Assembly: GCA_947460825.1 (NCBI GenBank)
Contig: CANHHA010000010.1
Coordinates: 1 to 64,000 of the forward strand
DNA length: 64,000 nucleotides
Reading direction: 5' to 3'
DNA from: Flavobacteriales bacterium
Lineage (GTDB): Bacteria; Bacteroidota; Bacteroidia; Flavobacteriales_D; Crocinitomicaceae
Shown: piece after piece, positions 23,651 through 59,673 of the stretch
How the letters are laid out: every line of letters begins with the position of its first letter
How positions within the stretch are numbered: position 1 is the stretch's first letter
Program-made: the position numbers and the translations under genes
The notes under the pieces: model-generated
What the model was told of the DNA's origin: nothing
What the model saw: the letters and a program-made list of their open reading frames with translations, nothing else
The model's database searches: none

Positions 23651-24769
23651 ATGAAAACAATTGTTGTATGTGTTACTTCTGATTTAGCCACCGACAATCG
23701 GGTTTTACGGCATTGCGAACTCATGCACGAGATGGGTTTAAAGGTACTTGTTTTGGGCAGGAAACTACCTTCAAGCCCGGTGATGCCTATATTGCCCTAT
23801 GACAGCTACAGGGTCAAGCTCCCTTTTTCACAAGGACCTTTATTTTACCTCAGCTTTCAAGTTTGGCTTTTTTTCTTCTTACTTTTTAAAAAAGCAGACA
23901 TCATTTGGGCCAACGATCTAGATACGGTGCTTCCGTGTATTATGGTTTGTAAAATACGGCGCCTATTCTTCACCGTTGATGCCCACGAGCTCTTTACCGA
24001 AGTCCCGGAACTGCGGAACGCTCCGATCAAGAGGTCTATTTGGGGAATTATTGAAAAACATCTTGCCGTAAAAGCAGATCTATTCATTACGGTAAACCAC
24101 TCTTTGGCTGGCTACTTCAACCATAAATACGGAATCAATCCAAGCGTCATTCGAAATGTACCCAAACGAATCAACCTTACTTCAGCGCATACAAAGATGT
24201 CTTTAGGCATCCCGGAGGGAGACCTCGTAGTTGTGATTCAAGGATCCGGCATAAATAAAGGAAGAGGGCTAGAGGAAACGATCAAAGCCATTAGTCTACT
24301 GAGCGGTGTAAGCTTATTGATTATTGGCGGAGGCAATGCCATCGAAGACGCGAAACAACAATCAGTAGCGCTTGGAATCGAAGCAAAGGTTCATTTCATT
24401 AAACGTATTCCTTATCATGAAATGATGCGATATACTCAACTCGCATCGATTGGCCTTGCCTATGATGCAGACCCATGTTTGAATTTTCACTTGGCACTGC
24501 CCAATAAAATATTTGATTATTTCCACGCTGGAATTGCGGTAATTAGCGGGCCTCAGCCAGAAATATCAGGCTTGGTATCCACCTATGAATGTGGGTATAT
24601 AATGAAGCAAATTACGCCAGAATCAATTCAGTGGGCGATCGCTTTCTATCAAAAACATCCAGCATTACTTGCCACGCATCAACGGAATTCAAAAAAAGCA
24701 TCTGAAATAGAACATTGGGATCATGAGAAAGCGGCATTAGCATCTATACTCAGTCCGTTAATCGATTAA
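23651..24769 (+). CDS. Glycosyltransferase, GT4-like
   Basis: A 372-residue GT-B fold glycosyltransferase. The N-terminal acceptor half opens KTIVVCVTSDLATDNRVLRH, a common start in surface-polysaccharide GT4 enzymes, and includes a hydrophobic stretch (about 65-80). The donor half has VVIQGSGINKGRGLEETIKA and a nucleotide-sugar region NKIFDYFHAGIAVIS. It stands alone on the plus strand. Its last 20 bases overlap tail-to-tail with the GT2 gene on the other strand. The sugar and acceptor cannot be told from sequence. Confidence 0.88.
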   Translation: MKTIVVCVTSDLATDNRVLRHCELMHEMGLKVLVLGRKLPSSPVMPILPYDSYRVKLPFSQGPLFYLSFQVWLFFFLLFKKADIIWANDLDTVLPCIMVCKIRRLFFTVDAHELFTEVPELRNAPIKRSIWGIIEKHLAVKADLFITVNHSLAGYFNHKYGINPSVIRNVPKRINLTSAHTKMSLGIPEGDLVVVIQGSGINKGRGLEETIKAISLLSGVSLLIIGGGNAIEDAKQQSVALGIEAKVHFIKRIPYHEMMRYTQLASIGLAYDADPCLNFHLALPNKIFDYFHAGIAVISGPQPEISGLVSTYECGYIMKQITPESIQWAIAFYQKHPALLATHQRNSKKASEIEHWDHEKAALASILSPLID

Positions 24770-25652
24770 TGCGATCGAGCATACACAGTTTATATACATC
24801 AAATAAGGGGATTATTCCAATGGCTTTGCCTGCTTTTAAACGGTTTACTAACGTTGGCATGGCTAAATAAGATACCATTCTCAACAGCCACAATTGTTTG
24901 AATCGTTTTAAGGCACGGTGAACCCGAAGTACCCTAACCTGTGCGATAAATGCATCGGGATTTGAGGCGTACTGAATACAGCGCTTGAGATTTCGAATGG
25001 CCTCCTCTGTCTTCCTCAAGAACACTTCATTCGAATCCAACACTGCGTTTTTTACAGGGTTATTTATGTGATGAGTTTGAAACCCCAAAAGACCCAACTC
25101 GACACCAAATAAGGTGTCTTCATGTCCGTATCCCCTGAGCCCTTCATTAAACGATAACTTTTGGAATATTGATTTCCGAAGGAGCACATTGTTTGTTTTG
25201 AATCCCGAGCCACCTTTGGACCGTTCCTCTACGCTTTTACTTTCCCTAGTGTTACTGACTTTCCACCGTAAAAACTGATTAGCTGGAGGTGGGTCCTCTT
25301 GATACACACTGCCCCCATAACCAACGCTTATTGAATCGTTTTCAGCCAGTTCCAGCCACTTGGCAACAAAATCGGGCGCTACGAGTTCTGAATCACCATC
25401 CAAGAATAGGATAAGGTCTCCTTTCGCTTCGTGAACCAATCGATTTCGAGTTGCTGCACGACCTAGGTTGTGGTCATTTCTAAGTAACCTGAATCCTGAG
25501 AACAAGGGCATGGTGGTCATGACTGGTGATGGTGAACAATCATCACAGACCAAAACCTCGACGGAATTCGGAAGTAATTCAAGCTGACCTTGCAAGGCAA
25601 GCACTAAGGCATCTACATTACAGTGATAGGCTGGAATGCAAATGCTCAGCAT
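24750..25652 (-). CDS. Glycosyltransferase family 2
   Basis: A 300-residue GT-A fold enzyme. It shows the nucleotide-binding LSICIPAYHCN start, CDDCSP, GRAATRNRLV, and the metal-binding LILFLDGDSELV (DxD equivalent). A galactosyltransferase-like GYGHEDTLFGVEL block near residue 170 has the expected ED motif. A basic, helical C-terminus follows. It is the last gene of the six-gene H-NOX operon and starts on the stop of the DUF3467 gene (TAATG). Its link to nitric oxide signalling is only positional. Confidence 0.9.
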   Translation of the reverse strand: MLSICIPAYHCNVDALVLALQGQLELLPNSVEVLVCDDCSPSPVMTTMPLFSGFRLLRNDHNLGRAATRNRLVHEAKGDLILFLDGDSELVAPDFVAKWLELAENDSISVGYGGSVYQEDPPPANQFLRWKVSNTRESKSVEERSKGGSGFKTNNVLLRKSIFQKLSFNEGLRGYGHEDTLFGVELGLLGFQTHHINNPVKNAVLDSNEVFLRKTEEAIRNLKRCIQYASNPDAFIAQVRVLRVHRALKRFKQLWLLRMVSYLAMPTLVNRLKAGKAIGIIPLFDVYKLCMLDRINRLTD

Positions 25653-25957
25653 TATGCCATAGTATTCGGCGTACCAAAGTGCATCGGGGGCATTCCTGCA
25701 TGAGGCTCCTCAATTACACCAAAATTCTGCTCGTATTTTTCAATATTATCTGCCAATGCATGCAAAAATCGTTTTGCATTTTGGGGAGTCATTAGCACCC
25801 TGGATCGCACTTTTCCTTTGGGCATTCCCGGCATCATTTGAATAAAATCACAAACGACTTCTGCATTAGAATGCGTGATGACAGCAAGGTTGGAATAGAT
25901 ACCCAAAGCAATCTCTTCGGATAATTCAATATTCATTTGATTTTCTTGTTGATCCAT
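25652..25957 (-). CDS. DUF3467 family protein
   Basis: A 101-residue cytoplasmic protein of the DUF3467 family. It has the family pattern of an N-terminal YSNLAVITHSNAEVVCDF strand pair, a basic KGKVRSRVLMTPQNAKRF middle and a helical ALADNIEKYEQNFG end. No enzyme function is known. It lies three bases after the saccharopine dehydrogenase-like gene and overlaps the GT2 start by one base. Confidence 0.85.
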   Translation of the reverse strand: MDQQENQMNIELSEEIALGIYSNLAVITHSNAEVVCDFIQMMPGMPKGKVRSRVLMTPQNAKRFLHALADNIEKYEQNFGVIEEPHAGMPPMHFGTPNTMA

Positions 25958-25960
25958 GGC

Positions 25961-27298
25961 TTAGTTTATTTCTGTTATTGTATCGGTAAATTTAATTCCA
26001 AATTCTTCCAATTCCTTCAGTACAGGCAAATATATTTCCTTTTGGACAGGAATATGAACCCCTGGATTTGAATAGCCATTTAAGATGAGTTTAGCGATAA
26101 TACCAATGGGAATGCCCACTGTATTAGACATTGCCGTAAACACATTGTCCTCTCCCAGTGCTACCATAGATGAAGTAATTTTAGTGCGCCCCTTTGCATC
26201 TTCAAATTCAAACTCATGCAACATGACCAACATATCTTTATCCGTTGGCTTTAGCACCCACGCTTTTTCAAGGAGGGCATGCAGCAGCACCGCGGGACTC
26301 GCATCTTCTTGAAACAGCAATACATCCCCTTTAAAGCAGCCGATTTCTTGAAACAGCTCAAAAAGATGCGCACGCTCTGGACGTAAGAATTTTTTAAATT
26401 TAACTTCTACACTATCCACGAGGTGATAAGGTAAAAAAGCATTCATTAATTGCCTTGGGCTTAGCAAGCTGCTGTTTTCTAGCACATAACTATCATCGGT
26501 AAGGCCAAGTTCAATTAACACATCCCACCCCTGACAAAAATCCGGTTTCCTCAGGGTCCCGCGATAAATGGTTTCCACCTCATCGATGTTGTAAATGTCA
26601 ATATACTTTAGGGAATCTCTGTTTGCATAACCATCAAATGATCCGTATCCATCAATAATAAATCGTTCCGTTCTTTTGAATAACTGAGAATATGGAATGT
26701 ACTTGAGTTCTTTGTTTTGACGAAATGCGGCAATCCCACCTTGTCCAGCAACAATAACATTTCTTGGATTCCAAGTAAACTTGTAATGCCATGAATTATC
26801 GTCAGATTCTGGGGCAATGAGACCCCCACAAAAGGATTTAAACACTTTTAAGGTTGCGCCCTCTTCGCGTTTTTCATCCATAATCTTCATGGCACTCATG
26901 TGGTCTATTCCCGGGTCTACTCCAGTTTCATTCAGAATGGTAACACCTTTGAGCACGGCCTCTTCGTGCAATTGTTTCATGGCTGGAGAAACATAACTTG
27001 GTGTTATTAAATCCGTTCTCAAATCTATGCAATCCCTAGCCACCTCTAGATGGAATTTAGCCGGAAGCATGGATATCACTAAGTCAACGTGAGCAATAAC
27101 TGCGCGACGCTCCTCGGCAACACTGGCATCCAGTTGAATTAAATGAACACGCTGATTATCACTATATTTAGAACGCAACGGCTCAATGTTCGAATTTCCG
27201 ATTTTAAGCAACCAATCTTCAGAGATTAGACGTTCAGAAAGATAGCGAAGTAAGGAAGAAGCCGACAAGCCTGCCCCTAATACCAATATCGTTTTCAT
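25961..27298 (-). CDS. Saccharopine dehydrogenase-like oxidoreductase
   Basis: A 445-residue NAD(P)-dependent enzyme of the saccharopine reductase family, which interconverts saccharopine with aminoadipate semialdehyde and glutamate in lysine metabolism. The Rossmann start is ILVLGAGLSASSLL. Family blocks include ISMLPAKFH, NETGVDPGIDHMSA, SFCGGLIAPE and YRGTLRKPDFCQGW. It lies five bases after the response regulator and three before DUF3467, so it is cotranscribed with the H-NOX two-component system. A role in lysine catabolism is probable from family membership. The second lysine-degradation partner is not in view. Confidence 0.88.
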   Translation of the reverse strand: MKTILVLGAGLSASSLLRYLSERLISEDWLLKIGNSNIEPLRSKYSDNQRVHLIQLDASVAEERRAVIAHVDLVISMLPAKFHLEVARDCIDLRTDLITPSYVSPAMKQLHEEAVLKGVTILNETGVDPGIDHMSAMKIMDEKREEGATLKVFKSFCGGLIAPESDDNSWHYKFTWNPRNVIVAGQGGIAAFRQNKELKYIPYSQLFKRTERFIIDGYGSFDGYANRDSLKYIDIYNIDEVETIYRGTLRKPDFCQGWDVLIELGLTDDSYVLENSSLLSPRQLMNAFLPYHLVDSVEVKFKKFLRPERAHLFELFQEIGCFKGDVLLFQEDASPAVLLHALLEKAWVLKPTDKDMLVMLHEFEFEDAKGRTKITSSMVALGEDNVFTAMSNTVGIPIGIIAKLILNGYSNPGVHIPVQKEIYLPVLKELEEFGIKFTDTITEIN

Positions 27299-27303
27299 CG
27301 AAT

Positions 27304-27711
27304 TTATGGAATGTTTTCTATGATTGGGCGAACCGCATTGAAGAGCACTTCTTCATCCCATGGTTTTGAAATAAAAGAGTCGAGTAAGTTATCTTTAACC
27401 AATCCATCTAAAGAAACTGGATTAGCTTGGCCAGAAAGCATGACGCATTTGAGTTCTGGATGTTTTTCTTTTATGGATCGAATAAGCTGTGCACCAGTCA
27501 TTTGTGGCATTTGATAATCCACAATTATAAAGATGATATCTATTTTATCAGCCACCAGCTGATCAATATTAAGTAAGGCTTCAAAAGGGTCTGTAAAATA
27601 CTCGAGCAGGGTACATTTCTGGTCTAAAATCTTACCAAGCTGAAAGCCCAACATCTGCAAAATGAATGGATCATCATCCACACAAACAACCGCATATTTT
27701 ATTTCATCCAT
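27304..27711 (-). CDS. Receiver-domain response regulator without output domain
   Basis: A 135-residue protein that is a receiver domain and nothing more. The acidic pocket is D12-D14, the phosphorylation site is D65 in FIIVDYQMP, the switch serine is in VMLSGQA and the conserved lysine is in SKPW. It lies 12 bases after the large kinase and is the natural phosphate acceptor. Having no DNA-binding or enzymatic output, it probably acts by protein contact or passes phosphate on. Confidence 0.93.
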   Translation of the reverse strand: MDEIKYAVVCVDDDPFILQMLGFQLGKILDQKCTLLEYFTDPFEALLNIDQLVADKIDIIFIIVDYQMPQMTGAQLIRSIKEKHPELKCVMLSGQANPVSLDGLVKDNLLDSFISKPWDEEVLFNAVRPIIENIP

Positions 27712-27723
27712 AGAACAAAGGTA

Positions 27724-30700
27724 TTACATTAATTCAATCTCAACCTCATTTTTTTGTTCGGACTCGTAATTCAAGCGCTTGAACGTAAATGAAAAAGTGG
27801 TCCATTCTTCTGTTGAATCAAGGTTGATTTGTGCCACATGCTCATCCAACACGCTCTTGACAATACTCAAGCCGAGACCCGAGCCGTTTCGCCTAGCTTT
27901 TGTGGTATAAAACTTCTCAAACATATGTTGTTTTACTTCTTCAGAAATTTTAGGTCCATTGTTTGCTATATGCACGGTAACTTCGTCCGATGTAGATTCG
28001 GTGAAAATCTTAATAATCCCTCGCTCTTTATACTGATCCAAGGATTCAATGGCATTTTTAATAATATTGGACCATAATTGAAATAATTTGATGTCGAAGC
28101 CCTCTATGAACAGATTTCGATCTACATCAAAGATTAACTCAACACTTCGTTTAATGTCATAGTTAAAGACGTTGAGCACCGTATTAATATTATCAAATAA
28201 ATTCACAGGACCTTTATCGCTGTTTCGTTGATCCTTAATAAACGAACGAAGGTCTTGCACTACATTGGTAGCCCGGTCTGATGATGTTAAAATGGTTTCT
28301 ATGAAATTCCGAACGATTTGTAAGCTATAAATTAACTCAAGGAATTCGAACGGATTGGTGGAGTGCAACACCTGCTCAATAAACTCTTCTTGGTCAGGCA
28401 ACACCCTAGTCTTAACAAGCATTGCAACATACTTAGCCCTCGCATCCAATGCTATATCGGGGTATTTATCTGCGAGCAACAGATCTAGTGCTTTCATTTC
28501 TTTACGCTGTTGCAAGCCCCCAACAAACAATTCACCTTGACGTTCAATGGATCGATTCAGTGCTACATTAATCTGAGCTTCTGTACATTTCGAAACCACA
28601 TTGCCGAACAAATTATCTAGTGTAAAGCGGATACTTTCTGCGCCGATTTTTATCGCGCCAAGTGGTGTATTTAAATCATGAGCAATCCCTGAGGCTATCT
28701 CTCCAATGGTAACTAACTTCTCTTGATCAGACATAGATTTGGTGAGCTCCAAATTGCGATTCGTTTCCTCTGCAACCCGTCGCTCAAGACCCGCGTTTAT
28801 TTCAAGAATTTCAAGTTGTAATTTTTCTTTGGTTTTTTGCTCCTCTATGGCTGAAATTTTTTGCGACAAGAGGTTTGAAATGGTCATTAACACACGCAGG
28901 TGGAGGTCTGTAAAAAACCCTTTCCGTTCATTTTCTGAATCGATAACTCCCCAGATTTTGCGTCCCAATTTAATGGGAACAGCCACTTCAGAAAGACGTT
29001 TTTCATCGTCTACGATGTACCGCTCATCTATAGAAGTATCTTCAACAAGTAGTGCTTTGCCTGTTTTAGCTACAGCACCCACAATACCTTGCCCAAGGGG
29101 TATTTTCATGGTGTCTTTTAGTACCCTGCGGCGTTTCGTTTTATTGCCCATCGCGGCCACTTGAACCAAGGATTTCTCTTCCAATTTATAAATCACACAG
29201 TCCTCAAAATCCAGTTGAGAAATAACATTCTCAACGATATCCCAGCAAATCTCTTCATACTCGGTTCCGGTTAAAAAGGAATCCGCCAGTACATTAACCG
29301 TTTTCTCTGCTTGAATGATCTTTTGTAGTTCGGCATTTATTTGATTGATGGTCAAATTTGACTCATGAATCGCCTTGATGTTACGTATTCGCTCCTTAAC
29401 ATTCACGAGCATTCGAGACAAAAGCACGAGGAGTACTTTTTCATCGTCATAAAACTTACGATAATCCTTAACTGCATCGAGTCCAACAAAACCAATGCTC
29501 ACCCCATCATGCATAAGCGGAAGCGCGATCAAGGACTTTATATCTTGTTCCAATAAGAGCTCTTTAAACATTCCATCCGGAAGTTTTGTGGTGTTTTCAA
29601 CCTCAACATTCTCACCCTTTGAATGCGTTTCTACCCAAACTGGAACATATTCAAAAGGTATATCTTGTAAGTTATTTATCTCTGGATTTATGTCCTCAGC
29701 CACCCATTCATGGGTGTTTGATGTCGTTTGTTTTTCATGATTATATTCGAACAGATAAACCCGATCTACTTTCATGAACTTCCCAAGTCTTTCAAGGGTA
29801 CTGTTTATTAATTCATCTAGTGCATCTGGATTTATATCAATAAATTCGGTTGCAACCTCCATGATCACGGCTTGGAATTCATTTTTATAGGCAAGAATTC
29901 TTTCCGCCTGCTTGCGCTCAGAGATGTCCCGCGAGGCAGCAATAATATATCCATTACCGTCAATAACTTGATGTCGCACATACACTTCAACATCGATGGT
30001 TTTTCCGGTGACTTGGTTTACATTCACAGACTCCGATGAAAACGAACCTTTTTCTTTAAGAAATTCCAAGTGAGCCTGCCAATCCTTAGGATCCTTAAAT
30101 TGATGGTCAATATCAGACACTTTATACTTCGTAATTTCCTCCATTGGTATACCCAAGCGTTCCGAGGCAGCCTTGTTTATATAGACGAAATTCCCATGGT
30201 CATCTGCCACCTGCACTGCATCGGAGGCGGCATTCAAAAATTGTTCAAGTAGGGTAAGGCGTAAATGAGATTGAGTCACCTCTTCTTCGGCTAATTTTCG
30301 TTGGGTAATATCTATACCGTAACCAACCACATTGCGTTTTTTTGAATTCGGGTTGTAGATCGGGCGCATTCGGCGCATGATGACCTTGCGGTTTCCATTC
30401 GCATCATGCATATCATCCTCCCACTCTACCTCTTTATCTTGTTTTAATACTTCAAGAAACTTAGCCCTTCTAAAATCCGCTCCTGCAGTAGATGTTCCTT
30501 TTAACGCACAATAGTCGTAGTCATCTTTTCCAATCATAAATTCACGAGTCTCAGAACTTTTAATCCCTTGTGGATTCACGAAAAGATAGCGGTGCTCATC
30601 ATCAAATACGGCAATATCCGAAGGAATATTATTTAGGATATATTCGTAGAATTCTTGTTGGTCGTTTAATCTCAGTGCAAGTTCAGTAAGTTCACTTTCC

Positions 30701-31500
30701 TTCTGAGCTACTTGGTCTACAAAATGGGTAATATTCGCTGCGTACAAATTAAAAAAGTTGTTCGAAGCTTTTTTACGAATATTAAGTTGGTAGGTATTAT
30801 TATTTCGTGTAAGGTAAACGGAGTGATTTTCTAGGTGATTGATATGCACATAATTCAAGTGCTCCTTAAGCTCTTTATCGTTAAGATCGTTTGTGGTAAA
30901 ATTAAAGTCCCTTAAAAATTGTGTCGAAGAAGGGTTTGCATAGAGCAACTTACATCCTACCCCAATCCGCAATACCGGATTCGGATTTTCCTCAGGAAAC
31001 AATGAGGTATTCAATAATTCTTGCTTACTCTCTTCTAAGGCTTTGTTTTTGAGTCGGTATTCATGGTTGAGGCGCTGTAAATCCTCCAAGGCTTTGGTGG
31101 ACGCCTGCAGCAGAAACAAATATTCCGCGATGTAATCTTGTTGTGGAAAATCCTTTAAAGTAAGCTGATAGGCTGAAATATGGAAATTTGCATTGACTAC
31201 GGGCGATCCATGGATAATATACCCCCATTCCACAGGCCTACCTGAAATTTTATACCGTTTACTCCCATCGCGCGTCTGTATAAAAAAAAGTTGGGACGTG
31301 TTATTTCGCAATTTATCAAAAGACCCACCCGTGACCCACTCGAAGGTCGTGTCAAAAGAAGCCGAAGTAGATAACTTAATTGCTTTATGAAAGGCCTTAC
31401 CCACCTTAAGGAGGGAAAAATCGTTCCCAACAAATAAGGTATGTGGGTTTGCGAATTCTAACGCACTGAATAAGGCATTAAGTTCTGATTCAGTGTTCAT
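27724..31500 (-). CDS. Cytoplasmic H-NOX-partner histidine kinase (HNOBA-like, PAS and GAF domains)
   Basis: A sensor kinase of 1258 residues without membrane helices. Residues about 10-150 resemble the H-NOX-associated (HNOBA) domain of soluble guanylate cyclase, with HGSPVVNANFHISAYQLTLK followed by a helical linker. Three PAS domains (about 165-255, 290-400, 420-530), two GAF domains (about 560-715 and 740-890), a coiled coil, the phosphoacceptor helix ASGIAHDLNTPLG (H941) and the ATPase domain (NIIKNAIE, GSGLGLSIV) follow. The HD rather than HE after the histidine is a subtype feature. The ATG at 31500 overlaps the H-NOX stop by four bases; an ATG at 31506 is an alternative. Domain borders are approximate; the HNOBA call is my pattern match. 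Confidence 0.9.
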   Translation of the reverse strand: MNTESELNALFSALEFANPHTLFVGNDFSLLKVGKAFHKAIKLSTSASFDTTFEWVTGGSFDKLRNNTSQLFFIQTRDGSKRYKISGRPVEWGYIIHGSPVVNANFHISAYQLTLKDFPQQDYIAEYLFLLQASTKALEDLQRLNHEYRLKNKALEESKQELLNTSLFPEENPNPVLRIGVGCKLLYANPSSTQFLRDFNFTTNDLNDKELKEHLNYVHINHLENHSVYLTRNNNTYQLNIRKKASNNFFNLYAANITHFVDQVAQKESELTELALRLNDQQEFYEYILNNIPSDIAVFDDEHRYLFVNPQGIKSSETREFMIGKDDYDYCALKGTSTAGADFRRAKFLEVLKQDKEVEWEDDMHDANGNRKVIMRRMRPIYNPNSKKRNVVGYGIDITQRKLAEEEVTQSHLRLTLLEQFLNAASDAVQVADDHGNFVYINKAASERLGIPMEEITKYKVSDIDHQFKDPKDWQAHLEFLKEKGSFSSESVNVNQVTGKTIDVEVYVRHQVIDGNGYIIAASRDISERKQAERILAYKNEFQAVIMEVATEFIDINPDALDELINSTLERLGKFMKVDRVYLFEYNHEKQTTSNTHEWVAEDINPEINNLQDIPFEYVPVWVETHSKGENVEVENTTKLPDGMFKELLLEQDIKSLIALPLMHDGVSIGFVGLDAVKDYRKFYDDEKVLLVLLSRMLVNVKERIRNIKAIHESNLTINQINAELQKIIQAEKTVNVLADSFLTGTEYEEICWDIVENVISQLDFEDCVIYKLEEKSLVQVAAMGNKTKRRRVLKDTMKIPLGQGIVGAVAKTGKALLVEDTSIDERYIVDDEKRLSEVAVPIKLGRKIWGVIDSENERKGFFTDLHLRVLMTISNLLSQKISAIEEQKTKEKLQLEILEINAGLERRVAEETNRNLELTKSMSDQEKLVTIGEIASGIAHDLNTPLGAIKIGAESIRFTLDNLFGNVVSKCTEAQINVALNRSIERQGELFVGGLQQRKEMKALDLLLADKYPDIALDARAKYVAMLVKTRVLPDQEEFIEQVLHSTNPFEFLELIYSLQIVRNFIETILTSSDRATNVVQDLRSFIKDQRNSDKGPVNLFDNINTVLNVFNYDIKRSVELIFDVDRNLFIEGFDIKLFQLWSNIIKNAIESLDQYKERGIIKIFTESTSDEVTVHIANNGPKISEEVKQHMFEKFYTTKARRNGSGLGLSIVKSVLDEHVAQINLDSTEEWTTFSFTFKRLNYESEQKNEVEIELM

Positions 31501-32042
31501 TCCCATTCAATCAAAAAGACATGGCAATCGGAATCATCGCCTTTCTCAAGAATTTGCTTAATCCGACAGTTAAGATTAAAGCGTTTTCCCAAGCCCTTAA
31601 TTAATCCGAATAACATTGGTGTTAGCCCTGCTCGGTGTGAACGATATTCTAACTCTAAAGAATTGGCCTTTTCATTTCGTATGGTGAATAGCGGCGGCGC
31701 TAAGTGGGGCATGATGTTACTCATCCGCGCATGCAACATATCAAGATTCGCTAAAAATTCAGGGAAAGAGGCTCCCGAAAGTTCCATTAATTCTCCATAC
31801 CCCTCCTCCGCGGTGTAGGTAATCCAATATTCGCCGAAGGCCTCAAGAATTACAGGGGCATCTGATTTGAGCACTACCGAAGCATGATGCACCAAGTCGT
31901 AAGTCAATTTATCCGGATAGGATTGTAAGCCAACAAATTCACTTTCCTCAAATCCTGCTCTCGATGCGATTTCAATCCAAGCCTCTTCGCCATAATTGGT
32001 GACCACTAAATCCTTGATTGCTTTGTTTACAAGACCGTACAT
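31497..32042 (-). CDS. H-NOX heme nitric-oxide/oxygen-binding sensor protein
   Basis: A 181-residue stand-alone H-NOX domain, the fold that binds heme and senses NO in bacteria and animals. It opens MYGLVNKAI like other members. The proximal heme ligand is H104 (DMLHARM) and the heme propionate motif is Y133-x-S135-x-R137 (YRSHR). The position of the distal tyrosine that stabilises oxygen in some members is Pro here (GLTPMLFGL), which predicts NO rather than O2 selectivity. It is first in the operon and overlaps its partner kinase by four bases. Confidence 0.95.
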   Translation of the reverse strand: MYGLVNKAIKDLVVTNYGEEAWIEIASRAGFEESEFVGLQSYPDKLTYDLVHHASVVLKSDAPVILEAFGEYWITYTAEEGYGELMELSGASFPEFLANLDMLHARMSNIMPHLAPPLFTIRNEKANSLELEYRSHRAGLTPMLFGLIKGLGKRFNLNCRIKQILEKGDDSDCHVFLIEWE

Positions 32043-32059: not shown

Positions 32060-32067
32060 CAAATATA
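32060..32067 (-). promoter_or_regulatory. -7 element for the H-NOX operon
   Basis: TATATTTG on the minus strand matches TAnnTTTG and lies 17 bases before the H-NOX ATG. The -33 region has no clean TTG. Confidence 0.45.
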
Positions 32068-51492: not shown

Positions 51493-52221
51493 ATGGACGC
51501 AATACACATTGAAAAAATCCTCTTTTTGGATATTGAAACGGTACCACAAACCTACAACTACCAAGACCTTGATGAAGCTGCTCGAACCTTATTCGAGGGG
51601 AAAAATCGGATGAAAATCACCGAAGAAAAACCCGCGGAAATGGTTTATAAAGACCTAGGTGGCATTCAATCTGAATTCGGAAAAATAATTTGTATTTCCG
51701 TGGGTATGGTAAAAGACAGCAGCACGGGAAGAACAATTCGAGTTAAATCTTTTGCGCATGACGACGAGCACACCCTATTAAGTCAATTCAAACGCTTGTT
51801 AGACGATCATTACAAAAACGCCATTTTGTGCGGGCATAATGCGAAAGAATTTGACTTTCCATACCTCTGTAGAAGGATGTTGATTAATGGAATATCCCTG
51901 CCCTTAGTTCTTGATATTGCAGGTAAAAAACCTTGGGAAATCCGTCATTTAGACACCATGGAGCTTTGGAAATTTGGAGATTACAAAGCATTCACTGGTT
52001 TAGCGCTGTTGTGTCATGTGTTTGGAATTCCTACGCCAAAGGATGATATTACTGGGGCCGATGTAGCTCGGGTATATTACGAAGACAACGATTTAGAACG
52101 CATTGCTGTGTACTGTGAAAAGGACGTTATTGCCTTGATTCAGGTTTATCTGAAAATGCATTTAGAACCCTTAGTTTCCGAAGGAAACATCACCCACGTG
52201 CCGCTAAGCCCTCAAGGATAA
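51493..52221 (+). CDS. 3'-5' exonuclease related to the PolB proofreading domain
   Basis: A 242-residue DEDDy exonuclease. Exo I is LFLDIETVPQ, Exo II is LCGHNAKEFDFPYL and Exo III is YCEKDVIAL, with the tyrosine of the DEDDy type. These supply the two-metal site. It occurs in many Bacteroidota as a stand-alone gene, and its substrate is not known. Its 3' end overlaps the rsmE gene by 32 bases on the opposite strand. Confidence 0.9.
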   Translation: MDAIHIEKILFLDIETVPQTYNYQDLDEAARTLFEGKNRMKITEEKPAEMVYKDLGGIQSEFGKIICISVGMVKDSSTGRTIRVKSFAHDDEHTLLSQFKRLLDDHYKNAILCGHNAKEFDFPYLCRRMLINGISLPLVLDIAGKKPWEIRHLDTMELWKFGDYKAFTGLALLCHVFGIPTPKDDITGADVARVYYEDNDLERIAVYCEKDVIALIQVYLKMHLEPLVSEGNITHVPLSPQG

Positions 52222-57402: not shown

Positions 57403-58469
57403 GGTGTAAAAAGTGAGCGGTATTTTTCTTGATTGGCTTGCACAGAAAACCGATTCTGAATGCATGTTTGGGCATTGGCACCAAGCATTCTTCCACGCGA
57501 TGGATCAGAAAGCAAGGCATTCATGAATTCAAACCAATCCTCCGTGGTAGTGGCAATGAATCCATCTTGACCATGTGTTATTATCGACGAATTCACCCCC
57601 ACATTAGCGGCAATGGTTGGAATCCCTAGCGCCATATATTGCAAGGCCTTAAAGCCACATTTCCCCTTGGCCCATTCGGTATCCTCAAGGGGCATAACCC
57701 CCATTTCAAATTGACTTAAGTCTTCAATTTCTGTGGATTTATTCCAGCGAACAAACCGCAGATTGGGAATGGGAAAGGATGGCGGTTCATTGGAAATCAC
57801 TACAAATTCAAAGGCATGAACAGCCGCTAATTTTTCTAAGGCAGGAACGATTGGTTTTAAATAATCTACGGTAGTATGCGTTCCAGTCCAACCAATAATT
57901 GGAACCGTAGGACGGGTGTGATCCGCGTGTAAGGCATGATAATCCATGTCAATGGTCGTGGGAATAACATCCACATGTGCATTATACCTTGATGCATACG
58001 AAGCTAAAAATTCATTTCCTACAGAAACTCGGTATGCCCAACGAATAATGAATTTTACTTTCCAATACCCTTTCAAGCGGTGAATGAACCGATGTTGTTT
58101 GCTATAATTTGGCAACCAAATGGCATCATCAAAATCATATACAATTCGTTTTCTTAACACCTTAGCAATCAGCCACTCAAAAATCGGAGGTCCGACCGGT
58201 GCCGCTTCGCGATGAATGAATACAAAATCCACAGAAATCAACCTTGCCAAGAGCATAACCCGTCGAATGAATCCCAGTAGGATTTGAAATGATTTGGCTA
58301 AAGGCTTATTCGACTGATAAAATATTTCCCAAGCGCTTGAACTTAAAAAGGGATAAGAGGTGGTATGAATGTGCTGAGTATCCAGCCACGAGAGATACTG
58401 CTCTACCCGAAAACGTTGCGAAGGGGCTTCACCCAAGGGATACGGACAAAGAATAGCCACCTTAATCAT
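57399..58469 (-). CDS. Glycosyltransferase, GT4-like
   Basis: A 356-residue GT-B enzyme. The start MIKVAILCPYPLGEAPSQRFR is favoured by the short eight-base overlap with the upstream gene; the longer frame adds 17 residues. The acceptor half has VDFVFIHREAAPVGPP and RIVYDFDDAIW, common in Bacteroidota surface glycan enzymes. The donor half has PIIGWTGTHTTVDYL and KCGFKALQYMALGIP. It sits between another glycosyltransferase and the M1 peptidase in a coupled set. Confidence 0.9.
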   Translation of the reverse strand: MIKVAILCPYPLGEAPSQRFRVEQYLSWLDTQHIHTTSYPFLSSSAWEIFYQSNKPLAKSFQILLGFIRRVMLLARLISVDFVFIHREAAPVGPPIFEWLIAKVLRKRIVYDFDDAIWLPNYSKQHRFIHRLKGYWKVKFIIRWAYRVSVGNEFLASYASRYNAHVDVIPTTIDMDYHALHADHTRPTVPIIGWTGTHTTVDYLKPIVPALEKLAAVHAFEFVVISNEPPSFPIPNLRFVRWNKSTEIEDLSQFEMGVMPLEDTEWAKGKCGFKALQYMALGIPTIAANVGVNSSIITHGQDGFIATTTEDWFEFMNALLSDPSRGRMLGANAQTCIQNRFSVQANQEKYRSLFTP

Positions 58470-59673
58470 TGGGTAAGATTTTTGTATAAACCTGTTGATA
58501 CGCAGCAATGCCCTGTTCAAGTCCTAAGGTGCGTATGGCATATGTTCGAATGGCAATTGAATCAAAGCGCATGCGTTGAAAATCCATTACCGAGGAAGGA
58601 ATATCATCCCAGGAGTTAATGCAAATCCCGGCGAGACCTTCTTGGATTAGGGCCTGCGAATCCCCAATGCCTACATTGCTTATTACAGGTACTCCCATCG
58701 CCAAGGACTCGCCTAATTTAACCGGTGACGAGGCACGTTTAGAAAACGCCGGCTCTATGAACTGAATGCTCGCTTGGGCCATATTAAGAAATGAAGGCAC
58801 CTCATGATGGGGTGCGCTGTGAATAATCACCCGGGAAGAAAGCGATTGATTTGAATTAACTATTGCTGAAGCTGCGGTTGTATCTTTGGTGAGAATCAAA
58901 AAATACCACGTGGGATCTAGCGCAGATAAGGCATTAAAAAAAATAAGTTCTTGGTCGAGGCGATACCACGTTCCCACAGAGCCCACATGAATTAACACCT
59001 TACCCTCCTCCGGTATACCCAAGAATCGTTTTAGGTTCAATGATGGGTTCTCGGGTTGAAATAACTCCGAATCAACACAACACGGAATTACGGTTGATTT
59101 ATGTTCCAAGATACTTGAACCGTAACGTTCAGAAAGGGCCTTAATCCCATCGTGCGTGAGGGAAACCAGTGCATCACTATAGTGAACAAACTCCTTTTCC
59201 TTTCGGAGGAAGTAGCAGTATATCCATCGATACAGGAGTTTATGTTGCGGCCATAAGTTCCCATCAACCCGCTCATCTGCCCACAGGCCACGCATATCGA
59301 AAATTACCTTTCTACCTTGGTTAAGAGACATGGCTACCAGCATGGGAAGGTAACTTCGGCAATGAATAATTGTGTGAGCGCTTGTGAGTGTCTTCTTCGC
59401 TGCACGTTTCATCCTCCAAAGATCATATACCGTTGAGAACACGGCCGGTTTCTTAGTATAGGAAAGCGGAATCCACTGGATATTTCTGCCTTCAATTTGT
59501 TGAAGAACGTGATGTTTATATTCAGATAAGGCCTCTTTTTTTTCAAAGGAAATGATAACGAAGCCCATCCCTTGTTGTTCCAGTCCGAGCAGATAGGGCA
59601 AGATTTGAGCTTGTCCCAAGGGGTCGGTTAATCCGTCGTAGGTTAAATAAAGGGCTTTCCCGTGGAGGTCCAT
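58462..59673 (-). CDS. Glycosyltransferase family 4
   Basis: A 403-residue GT-B glycosyltransferase. The acceptor half opens YLTYDGLTDPLGQAQILPYL, a signature of polysaccharide GT4 enzymes, and has KVIFDMRGLWADERVDG. The donor half has VLIHVGSVGTWYRLDQELIF and SPVKLGESLAMGVPVISN. It lies three bases after the Omp85-like gene and overlaps the next glycosyltransferase, so the three may build or export one glycan or lipid-linked product. Confidence 0.92.
   Translation of the reverse strand: MDLHGKALYLTYDGLTDPLGQAQILPYLLGLEQQGMGFVIISFEKKEALSEYKHHVLQQIEGRNIQWIPLSYTKKPAVFSTVYDLWRMKRAAKKTLTSAHTIIHCRSYLPMLVAMSLNQGRKVIFDMRGLWADERVDGNLWPQHKLLYRWIYCYFLRKEKEFVHYSDALVSLTHDGIKALSERYGSSILEHKSTVIPCCVDSELFQPENPSLNLKRFLGIPEEGKVLIHVGSVGTWYRLDQELIFFNALSALDPTWYFLILTKDTTAASAIVNSNQSLSSRVIIHSAPHHEVPSFLNMAQASIQFIEPAFSKRASSPVKLGESLAMGVPVISNVGIGDSQALIQEGLAGICINSWDDIPSSVMDFQRMRFDSIAIRTYAIRTLGLEQGIAAYQQVYTKILPND

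Follow-up and report, generated by a model that had tools for sequence, protein, structure and literature searches.

The six minus-strand genes at positions 24750-32042 of the 64,000-nt stretch of DNA analysed here (the window) are best read as two abutting transcription units, one for a NO receptor kinase resembling soluble guanylate cyclase (sGC) and a receiver-led one for a saccharopine dehydrogenase (SDH), a DUF3467 protein and a family 2 glycosyltransferase (GT2); we put the probability of this reading at about 0.63. The first unit, H-NOX and a histidine kinase, would be transcribed from a promoter box at -25 and would encode a receptor that is laid out like sGC with a histidine kinase replacing the cyclase. 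NO would bind to the heme of the H-NOX protein, which is expected to rest on the HNOBA domain and coiled coil of the kinase, autophosphorylation of the kinase at H943 would be altered, and phosphate would pass to D65 of a lone receiver. The second unit would open with the gene of this receiver, which probably works through protein contact, and continue through SDH, DUF3467 and GT2 on an mRNA that is probably leaderless, with the receiver AUG at its first base. The SDH, with a predicted role in lysine breakdown, the DUF3467 protein, apparently displaced from rpoC, and GT2 would mostly be neighbours by gene order.

Gene organization

The initial annotation had described six tightly packed minus-strand genes, and all six open reading frames were recovered where it had placed them, with gaps of 3-12 bases or small overlaps; Pfam also assigns every one of the six proteins as it had been named. 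In the direction of transcription these are the heme NO sensor H-NOX (HNOB; 31497-32042, 181 amino acids, Pfam HNOB E=7.2e-47), the histidine kinase (27724-31506, 1260 amino acids), the stand-alone receiver (27304-27711, 135 amino acids, Response_reg), an SDH of the LYS9/AASS type (25961-27298, 445 amino acids), the DUF3467 protein (25652-25957, 101 amino acids) and GT2 (24750-25652, 300 amino acids). The reading frames of H-NOX and the kinase overlap by 10 bases and those of DUF3467 and GT2 by one base; the gaps are 12 bases between kinase and receiver, 5 between receiver and SDH and 3 between SDH and DUF3467. GT2 and a convergent GT1 gene share 20 bases at their ends. Among the NCBIfam matches listed for the kinase, the receiver and GT2, names stay below cut-off except for a general PAS domain, and this includes an HfsG-like match of GT2.

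H-NOX and its partner kinase

The H-NOX protein scores 159.8 bits against Pfam HNOB (PF07700, cut-off 25.5) over residues 2-162, and its closest solved structure is Alr2278 from Nostoc (E=4.9e-53). The heme motifs that had been called intact proved invariant: the proximal heme ligand H104 and Y133, S135 and R137 of the YxSxR motif (residues 133-137) are present in all 12 aligned H-NOX rows, that of the window among them. NO is the presumed ligand.

The kinase has the domain order HNOBA-PAS-PAS-GAF-GAF-HisKA (H943)-insert-HATPase, and its H box, N box and G1, F and G2 motifs were all found. The H-box histidine is conserved in 48/48 cores. One comparison of loci drew on 41 chosen ones out of 135 annotated, and the kinase tree retained 48 of 53 rows. 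The G1 motif reads NNGP instead of DxGxG, but since 43 of 48 relatives have the same motif it is a family trait and no sign of decay of the window copy; a degenerate kinase was therefore rejected.

The N-terminus of the kinase is, by profile and fold homology, an HNOBA (H-NOXA/PAS-like) domain as found in sGC, which together with the start of the coiled coil covers residues 3-164 (31015-31500, minus strand). The window sequence stays below the cut-off of Pfam PF07701 (17.5-18 versus 23.4 bits), and Pfam HNOBA matches 23/27 aligned members at E<=0.01. With a held-out profile lacking Bacteroidota rows the domain was recovered at E=2.7e-13, and hhalign gave 99.2% against a cyanobacterial set to which it is ca. 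18% identical. A phmmer search of the PDB with the kinase N-terminus alone gave nothing useful and a Bacteroidota-only HNOBA profile retrieved no PDB chain at E<=0.01; the domain is recovered by mixed or cyanobacterial profiles and by fold. One mixed profile held cyanobacterial rows, so that its match to 2p04 arises partly by construction. In a fold search with the modelled N-terminus, a model of moderate confidence (pLDDT 76, pTM 0.55) whose input alignment included cyanobacterial rows, sGC chains ranked at the top, followed by the Manduca sGC PAS domain and Nostoc 2p04/2p08.

The HNOBA domain co-occurs with the Alr2278-like class of H-NOX proteins. It is present in 75 of 75 distinct kinases encoded behind a BLAST-recognised H-NOX gene and in 5 of 57 other kinases, while a held-out profile found it in 61/61 partner kinases versus 4/55 others, and a profile without Bacteroidota rows in 67/67 kinases behind this H-NOX class versus 3/55. 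These counts cover distinct kinases of at least 250 amino acids at loci L019-L072 and L074-L153, leaving out following reading frames that matched no kinase in BLAST and lacked HNOBA as well. The HNOBA-bearing exceptions are loci where H-NOX has been lost (L036, L039, L043 and L056) or severed by a contig end (L046). After the loss, only a partial HNOBA domain is left in L043 and L039, whereas L056 has kept a full one. That every H-NOX partner kinase carries HNOBA was rejected: kinases neighbouring a divergent class of H-NOX (L020, L032 and L033) have no HNOBA match, which limits the pairing to the Alr2278-like class. BLAST with the window H-NOX misses two of these three divergent genes, and the third is uncounted because the frames after H-NOX are shorter than 250 amino acids there. 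Where H-NOX has been lost naturally, HNOBA is partly decayed at two loci, which offers a testable map of H-NOX docking that is also relevant to sGC.

Downstream genes and their synteny

The SDH matches yeast saccharopine dehydrogenase (2axq, E=9.5e-64) and human AASS, with similarity to the solved enzymes over most of its length, and an LKR-like partner is encoded elsewhere in the genome; this places it in the LYS9/AASS group, with the corresponding activity predicted. Across the order Flavobacteriales, SDH and DUF3467 occur in nearly every genome (the genome tallies for H-NOX, SDH and DUF3467 include the window's own genome). Linkage was tested in 80 of the 103 H-NOX-positive genomes besides that of the window, 5 of the 80 being without an SDH match. 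A search for conserved synteny in relatives, as the initial annotation had proposed, showed that, besides the window, 17 of the 27 tested genomes of the genus with an H-NOX gene have it on the same contig as SDH, no more than 15 kb away; one genus genome has the two genes unlinked and nine are uninformative on linkage. Outside the genus they are linked in 0/51 genomes. Other genera have H-NOX-kinase-receiver cassettes that are bounded at their end by genes of the opposite strand, the SDH-DUF3467-GT2 block is kept in genus members without H-NOX, kinase or receiver, and DUF3467 stands directly behind rpoC in 6 of 8 genomes from other families. SDH, DUF3467 and GT2 look mostly like neighbours by gene order. 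Since the linkage is limited, among the genomes sampled, to one genus and SDH and DUF3467 are near-universal, a single operon for NO and metabolism was rejected as the main reading.

Predicted promoter boxes

Leaderless sigma-A promoters of flavobacteria have TAnnTTTG at -12 to -5, and leaderless transcripts make up 5.5% of the mRNAs surveyed in Flavobacterium psychrophilum, according to the available part of that study (PMC9723704). The same pattern is found in the window as a predicted sigma-A -7 box (TACCTTTG, 27716-27723, minus strand) at -12 to -5 from the receiver ATG, a position from which a second, leaderless transcript is predicted; unlike the published cases, this start is a prediction from sequence, in the genus of the window. 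Another predicted -7 box, that of the H-NOX-kinase transcript (TATATTTG, 32060-32067, minus strand), lies at -25. TAnnTTTG precedes H-NOX in 12/12 chosen genus loci (the window plus 11 others) and in 19/81 over all loci.

Before the receiver, the box stands exactly 12 bases from the start codon in 20 of 26 SDH-linked loci (12 loci removed as repeats) and before 0 of 38 other receivers (11 loci removed as repeats, as in the count over all loci). Its site is non-coding in 17 of the 26 loci, with gaps of 12, 47-49, 51 or 60 bases; a strict match at -12 is present in 14 of these 17, of which set 11 share the gap-12 arrangement. One locus (L079) has no box at -12, and a -33 motif is not consistently present among the SDH-linked loci. 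Taken by itself, the -7 box shows no enrichment across the window (55 versus 68 expected), so the promoter claim stands on position and conservation. The strict two-box Bacteroidota pattern has one match in the window, located away from these boxes, and a sigma-70-type scan gave promoter matches at chance level (24 versus 23.8). Terminator-like sites number 15 in the window against 8.6 expected, none of them within gene gaps, including that between kinase and receiver. SDH, DUF3467 and GT2 probably have their own promoter, at the receiver start; given the 12-base gap and the lack of a terminator-like match there, read-through from the H-NOX promoter is also quite possible.

The receiver

In the receiver, the acceptor D65, the D/D pair, S and K are conserved and no output domain is present; the acceptor aspartate occurs in 44/44 receivers. 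The genome has 13 receiver matches, and this is the only one in an open frame of less than 200 amino acids. The genome (98.2% complete) has no match to GGDEF, EAL or HD_5 and thus apparently lacks the usual c-di-GMP output. Protein contact is the probable mode of action of the receiver, given its stand-alone form and the lack of c-di-GMP enzyme matches in the genome.

Alternative explanations

Tight spacing can suggest an operon, and the initial annotation had considered a NO-controlled operon for metabolism or a surface glycan. Transcription of all six genes as one operon from the H-NOX promoter, with NO adjusting both lysine breakdown and a surface glycan, would agree with the spacing, with the gene order conserved within the genus and with a saccharopine route that SDH and its LKR-like partner could form. 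It is nevertheless distinctly unlikely, as the conserved promoter boxes and the wider synteny argue otherwise: none of the 51 H-NOX-positive genomes outside the genus shows the linkage, the downstream block persists without the signalling genes, DUF3467 follows rpoC elsewhere, and a promoter-like box marks the receiver start. This box could itself be a by-product of AT-rich kinase tails with no promoter role, there being one transcript and a gene order that reflects slow rearrangement. At 9 of the 26 SDH-linked loci it does lie within kinase codons, so that its conservation may partly reflect coding sequence, close relatives hold it by common descent, and it is unenriched over the whole window. 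We consider this explanation improbable in view of the 17 loci with a non-coding site at varied gaps, mostly with strict matches, its absence before other receivers and the recurrence of the -12 placement before unrelated genes.

The two-unit reading also has to be weighed against a receiver that is a dedicated partner of SDH and that, once phosphorylated, would bind or gate this enzyme or its pathway, with the upstream kinases as exchangeable inputs. SDH-linked receivers group in one clade (support 99/98), receiver and SDH lie on a predicted shared transcript, no other stand-alone receiver was found in the genome, and the two genes have stayed together in L036, L039, L043, L045 and L056, all from genomes in which H-NOX gave no match; an adjacency outlasting H-NOX in several lineages could mean a real tie. 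Still, SDH lacks a receiver in front in 16 of the 45 rows that represent the genus in the SDH tree and in 14/14 loci examined outside the genus, and contact between the proteins is a prediction, which makes this unlikely as well. Bolder, and also unlikely, is the idea that in this genus the lone receiver was captured to become the opening gene of a leaderless core metabolic transcript. The sGC-like NO receptor kinase would then act through direct protein contact, without c-di-GMP or DNA-binding output, to control either saccharopine/lysine flux or a function of DUF3467 that is linked to RNA polymerase. As to the signal, the available text of two reports describes H-NOX proteins that bind O2 or react to oxidation (PMC8738867; PMC7108781), and because none of the COX1-family proteins seen in the genome was a NO reductase, NO would have to come from elsewhere. 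A response to O2 or redox state instead of NO is very unlikely here, however, with Alr2278 as the nearest structure. Moreover, all 12 aligned H-NOX rows have Met at position 143, which we take to be the site of the distal tyrosine of O2 binders.

Comparison with known systems

The order of H-NOX, HNOBA/PAS and coiled coil is shared with sGC (alpha1/beta1), the source of the top fold matches, but in the window H-NOX is a separate protein and the output is a histidine kinase and no cyclase. This receptor architecture is joined to a kinase in many Flavobacteriales MAGs and occurs here in a genome in which no standard c-di-GMP output was found. In cyanobacterial H-NOX/kinase pairs, including that of the Nostoc punctiforme H-NOXA kinase (2p04, 2p08), which the window kinase matches in profile and fold, H-NOX likewise stands directly before the HNOBA kinase, whereas the window kinase has a pair of PAS and a pair of GAF domains in addition and a lone receiver encoded behind it. 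The H-NOX network of Shewanella oneidensis has HnoC and HnoD among its further members. In the HnoX/HnoK/HnoB part of it, a kinase under H-NOX control likewise passes its signal to a receiver protein, and the output includes a c-di-GMP phosphodiesterase according to the available text (PMC8846402), unlike in the window's genome with its lack of GGDEF, EAL and HD_5 matches.

No literature joining H-NOX with saccharopine was found. Among papers on H-NOX and Flavobacteri, no title or abstract opening names a Flavobacteriales H-NOX, and H-NOX, histidine kinase, Bacteroidetes and operon together matched, at the level of the records retrieved, only a review on squid symbiosis. The signalling unit of H-NOX, kinase and receiver proposed in the initial annotation is genuine and of a known kind. 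A matching three-gene layout with receiver-only output is formed by hnox2, the lpg2458 kinase and the CheY-like receiver lpg2457 of Legionella pneumophila; the likeness is one of layout, kinase domains aside, and the SDH/DUF3467/GT2 extension does not appear in the available description of that locus (PMC8738867). In some relatives, two kinases are present at the corresponding locus.

H-NOX locus and architecture of the kinase

The H-NOX locus is ordinary in kind, and what is worth following is the pairing of H-NOX with the H-NOX-associated domain (HNOBA) within this H-NOX class, with its natural loss, an H-NOX pathway in a genome where no c-di-GMP enzymes were detected, and the prediction of a leaderless transcript in which the receiver stands ahead of a lysine-breakdown gene. 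Re-reading of the window bore out the strands, spacing and overlaps given in the initial annotation for the six minus-strand open reading frames (24750-32042), and Pfam gives the same name for each of the six proteins. The heme motifs, described there as intact, are invariant in all 12 aligned H-NOX rows (H104 and Y133/S135/R137), and the closest solved structure to the window H-NOX is Nostoc Alr2278. The kinase of 1260 amino acids has the domain order HNOBA, PAS, PAS, GAF, GAF, HisKA (H943), a long insert, judged by the distance between HisKA and the later kinase matches, and HATPase (27778-28092). In 43 of 48 kinases of the window type the G1 motif is NNGP, not DxGxG. The long insert lies within the dimerisation domain of kinase cores.

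Used alone, the Pfam HNOBA family scores the kinase N-terminus under its cut-off. This N-terminus aligns clearly with kinases encoded behind cyanobacterial H-NOX genes (hhalign probability 99.2%), and a fold search with the predicted structure of its first 200 residues (pLDDT 76, pTM 0.55) ranks human and Manduca soluble guanylate cyclase (sGC) first, followed among others by two PAS domains, one of Manduca sGC and one of the Nostoc kinase (2p08/2p04). The relation of the H-NOXA domain of a Nostoc protein to sGC is described in a passage of PMC2828450. The full HNOBA profile matches 75/75 distinct kinases behind H-NOX versus 5/57 other kinases. Without rows from the window's genus it still finds all 61 distinct kinases behind BLAST-recognised H-NOX and 4/55 others; with cyanobacterial rows and one Verrucomicrobia row only, the counts are 67/67 and 3/55. 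The kinases beside a divergent H-NOX class that starts with MKG(I/V)VF, in three loci of other families (L020, L032 and L033) that are not part of these pairing counts, give no HNOBA match, filters off included; another divergent H-NOX (L034), 27% identical to that of the window, is followed by a kinase that carries HNOBA. Judged from these sequences, HNOBA accompanies the Alr2278-like H-NOX class and not every H-NOX, because the kinases of L020, L032 and L033 are without it; there are therefore at least two kinds of bacterial H-NOX partner here.

The five HNOBA-positive exceptions to the full profile are L036, L039, L043, L056 and L046; the last sits at a contig end, and the genomes of the other four (G036, G021, G006 and G026, respectively) have no H-NOX match. 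In L036, H-NOX is an 81-aa remnant upstream of the kinase, with an internal loss and without the heme histidine, beside an intact kinase, receiver and saccharopine dehydrogenase (SDH). The HNOBA match of L043 and L039 reaches over the beginning of the domain only (residues 1-94 in L043, 6-106 in L039), and the LKDFP segment of H-NOX-linked kinases is missing at the starts of these two kinases. Loss of H-NOX does not always erode HNOBA, because L056 retains it at full length. The kinase of L045 has no HNOBA match, in a genome with no H-NOX match. On balance, these sequences support the HNOBA domain and coiled coil as the putative H-NOX-dependent part of the kinase.

Receiver, output and promoter boxes

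Similar to the Legionella hnox2 locus, which an excerpt of PMC8738867 presents as a three-gene layout with a CheY-like receiver, the kinase is followed by a stand-alone receiver. All 44 receivers have the acceptor aspartate, which in the window is D65, and among 13 receiver matches in the genome the window's receiver is the sole one in an open frame of <200 aa. The SDH-adjacent receivers form one clade (support 99/98, 100% of 200 bootstrap trees), separate from the first-position receivers of two-kinase loci and from those of stand-alone cassettes. GGDEF, EAL and HD_5 families have zero matches in the window's genome, and of 14 control genomes 8, 6 and 4, respectively, match them; these families therefore do not offer the c-di-GMP output that is usual for H-NOX pathways. 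Phosphate would pass from the kinase to the receiver, which would act on its target by contact; ligand identity, regulatory sign and receiver target are all three what we infer. The genome encodes two COX1-family proteins, one a cbb3 above the family cut-off and the other best matching aa3-type subunit I under its cut-off; NO reductase is not among them.

In the window and in each of 11 chosen loci of the genus (12/12), the box TAnnTTTG, a predicted sigma-A -7 element, lies 17-26 bases upstream of H-NOX; over all loci, 19/81 have it within the last 40 bases before H-NOX. The SDH-linked receiver has a further box of its own, exactly 12 bases ahead of its start codon (-12), in 20/26 loci. This site is non-coding in 17/26, because the kinase stop comes first; 14 of these 17 have an exact match at -12, with gaps of 12, 47-49, 51 or 60 bases, while the box carries one mismatch in L036 and L084 and is absent from this place in L079. 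The gap of 12 is common to 11 of the 17. In the other nine loci the box lies inside kinase codons (six exact). Among 38 receivers with no SDH behind, a box within the last 40 bases occurs just once, at position -32. According to a passage in PMC9723704, the sigma-A box of Flavobacterium psychrophilum runs from -12 to -5, and of the mRNAs examined in that species 5.5% lack a leader. By this rule the receiver transcript is predicted to begin at the A of AUG. Absence of a -33 motif here says little, since in F. johnsoniae none is identifiable, as stated in an excerpt of PMC7366714. Across the window and the genus loci, 22 of 406 ORF starts have the box at -12: 12 receivers, 3 SDH genes and, for the remainder, aroC-like (named by eye) and other genes. 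Such genes with a box at or near -12 lie at 58462-59673 and 51493-52221 in the window and in L051, L052, L059, L061 and L062. This distribution suggests that leaderless mRNAs form a class in the genus. In L029, L031 and L046 the receiver box is altered by one base and SDH has an exact box at -12, as if the leaderless start had shifted one gene downstream.

Gene order and downstream genes

H-NOX is present in 12/36 genus relatives and 4/23 other genomes of the order, and, in a wider sample of the order that counts the window's own genome, in 104/399 genomes. The linkage of H-NOX to the downstream genes, for which the initial annotation proposed a synteny search, recurs in the genus, where H-NOX and SDH lie on the same contig ≤15 kb apart in 17/27 tested genomes, and fails outside it (0/51 genomes carrying both genes). 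In the genus, G003 has the two unlinked, and 9/27 genomes were unjudgeable because of contig ends or no SDH found; three outside genomes have both on one contig but 90 kb to 1.6 Mb apart. The H-NOX-kinase-receiver cassette of other genera often abuts opposite-strand genes at its end. An extra kinase, mostly with an extra receiver, precedes SDH in L023, L024, L026, L028, L029, L031 and L117; this second kinase probably has a different input, since it lacks HNOBA. Genome G007 carries two versions of the block (L063 and L064), with SDH 100% and 89% identical to that of the window, and is probably a mixed bin.

SDH was matched in 57/60 genomes and DUF3467 in 56/60, own genome counted. Outside the genus (8 other-family loci and 6 loci of further genera within the family), SDH was beside a BLAST-recognised receiver, DUF3467 or the glycosyltransferase GT2 in 0/14. 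Within it, the order SDH-DUF3467-GT2 against the convergent GT1 is kept in most loci, signalling genes present or absent, with partial exceptions in L031, L045 and L028. In 6/8 genomes of other families, DUF3467 stands immediately behind rpoC (L165, L166, L167, L169, L170 and L171; rpoC of the window was named by Pfam). As read from gene order, DUF3467 (25652-25957) has in the genus moved to SDH from rpoC, and it may have a link with RNA polymerase. SDH belongs to the LYS9/AASS type and an LKR-like protein (AASS E=2.5e-35) is also encoded in the genome, so that lysine breakdown via saccharopine is plausible in this organism; no paper joining H-NOX and saccharopine was found in the library searched. 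The LKR-like gene (L155, 1483-2694) lies beside KdsA-like and KDO-phosphatase-like genes, named by eye. In L024 and L115 (G017), DUF3467 and GT2 share a single 405-aa open frame, an apparent fusion.
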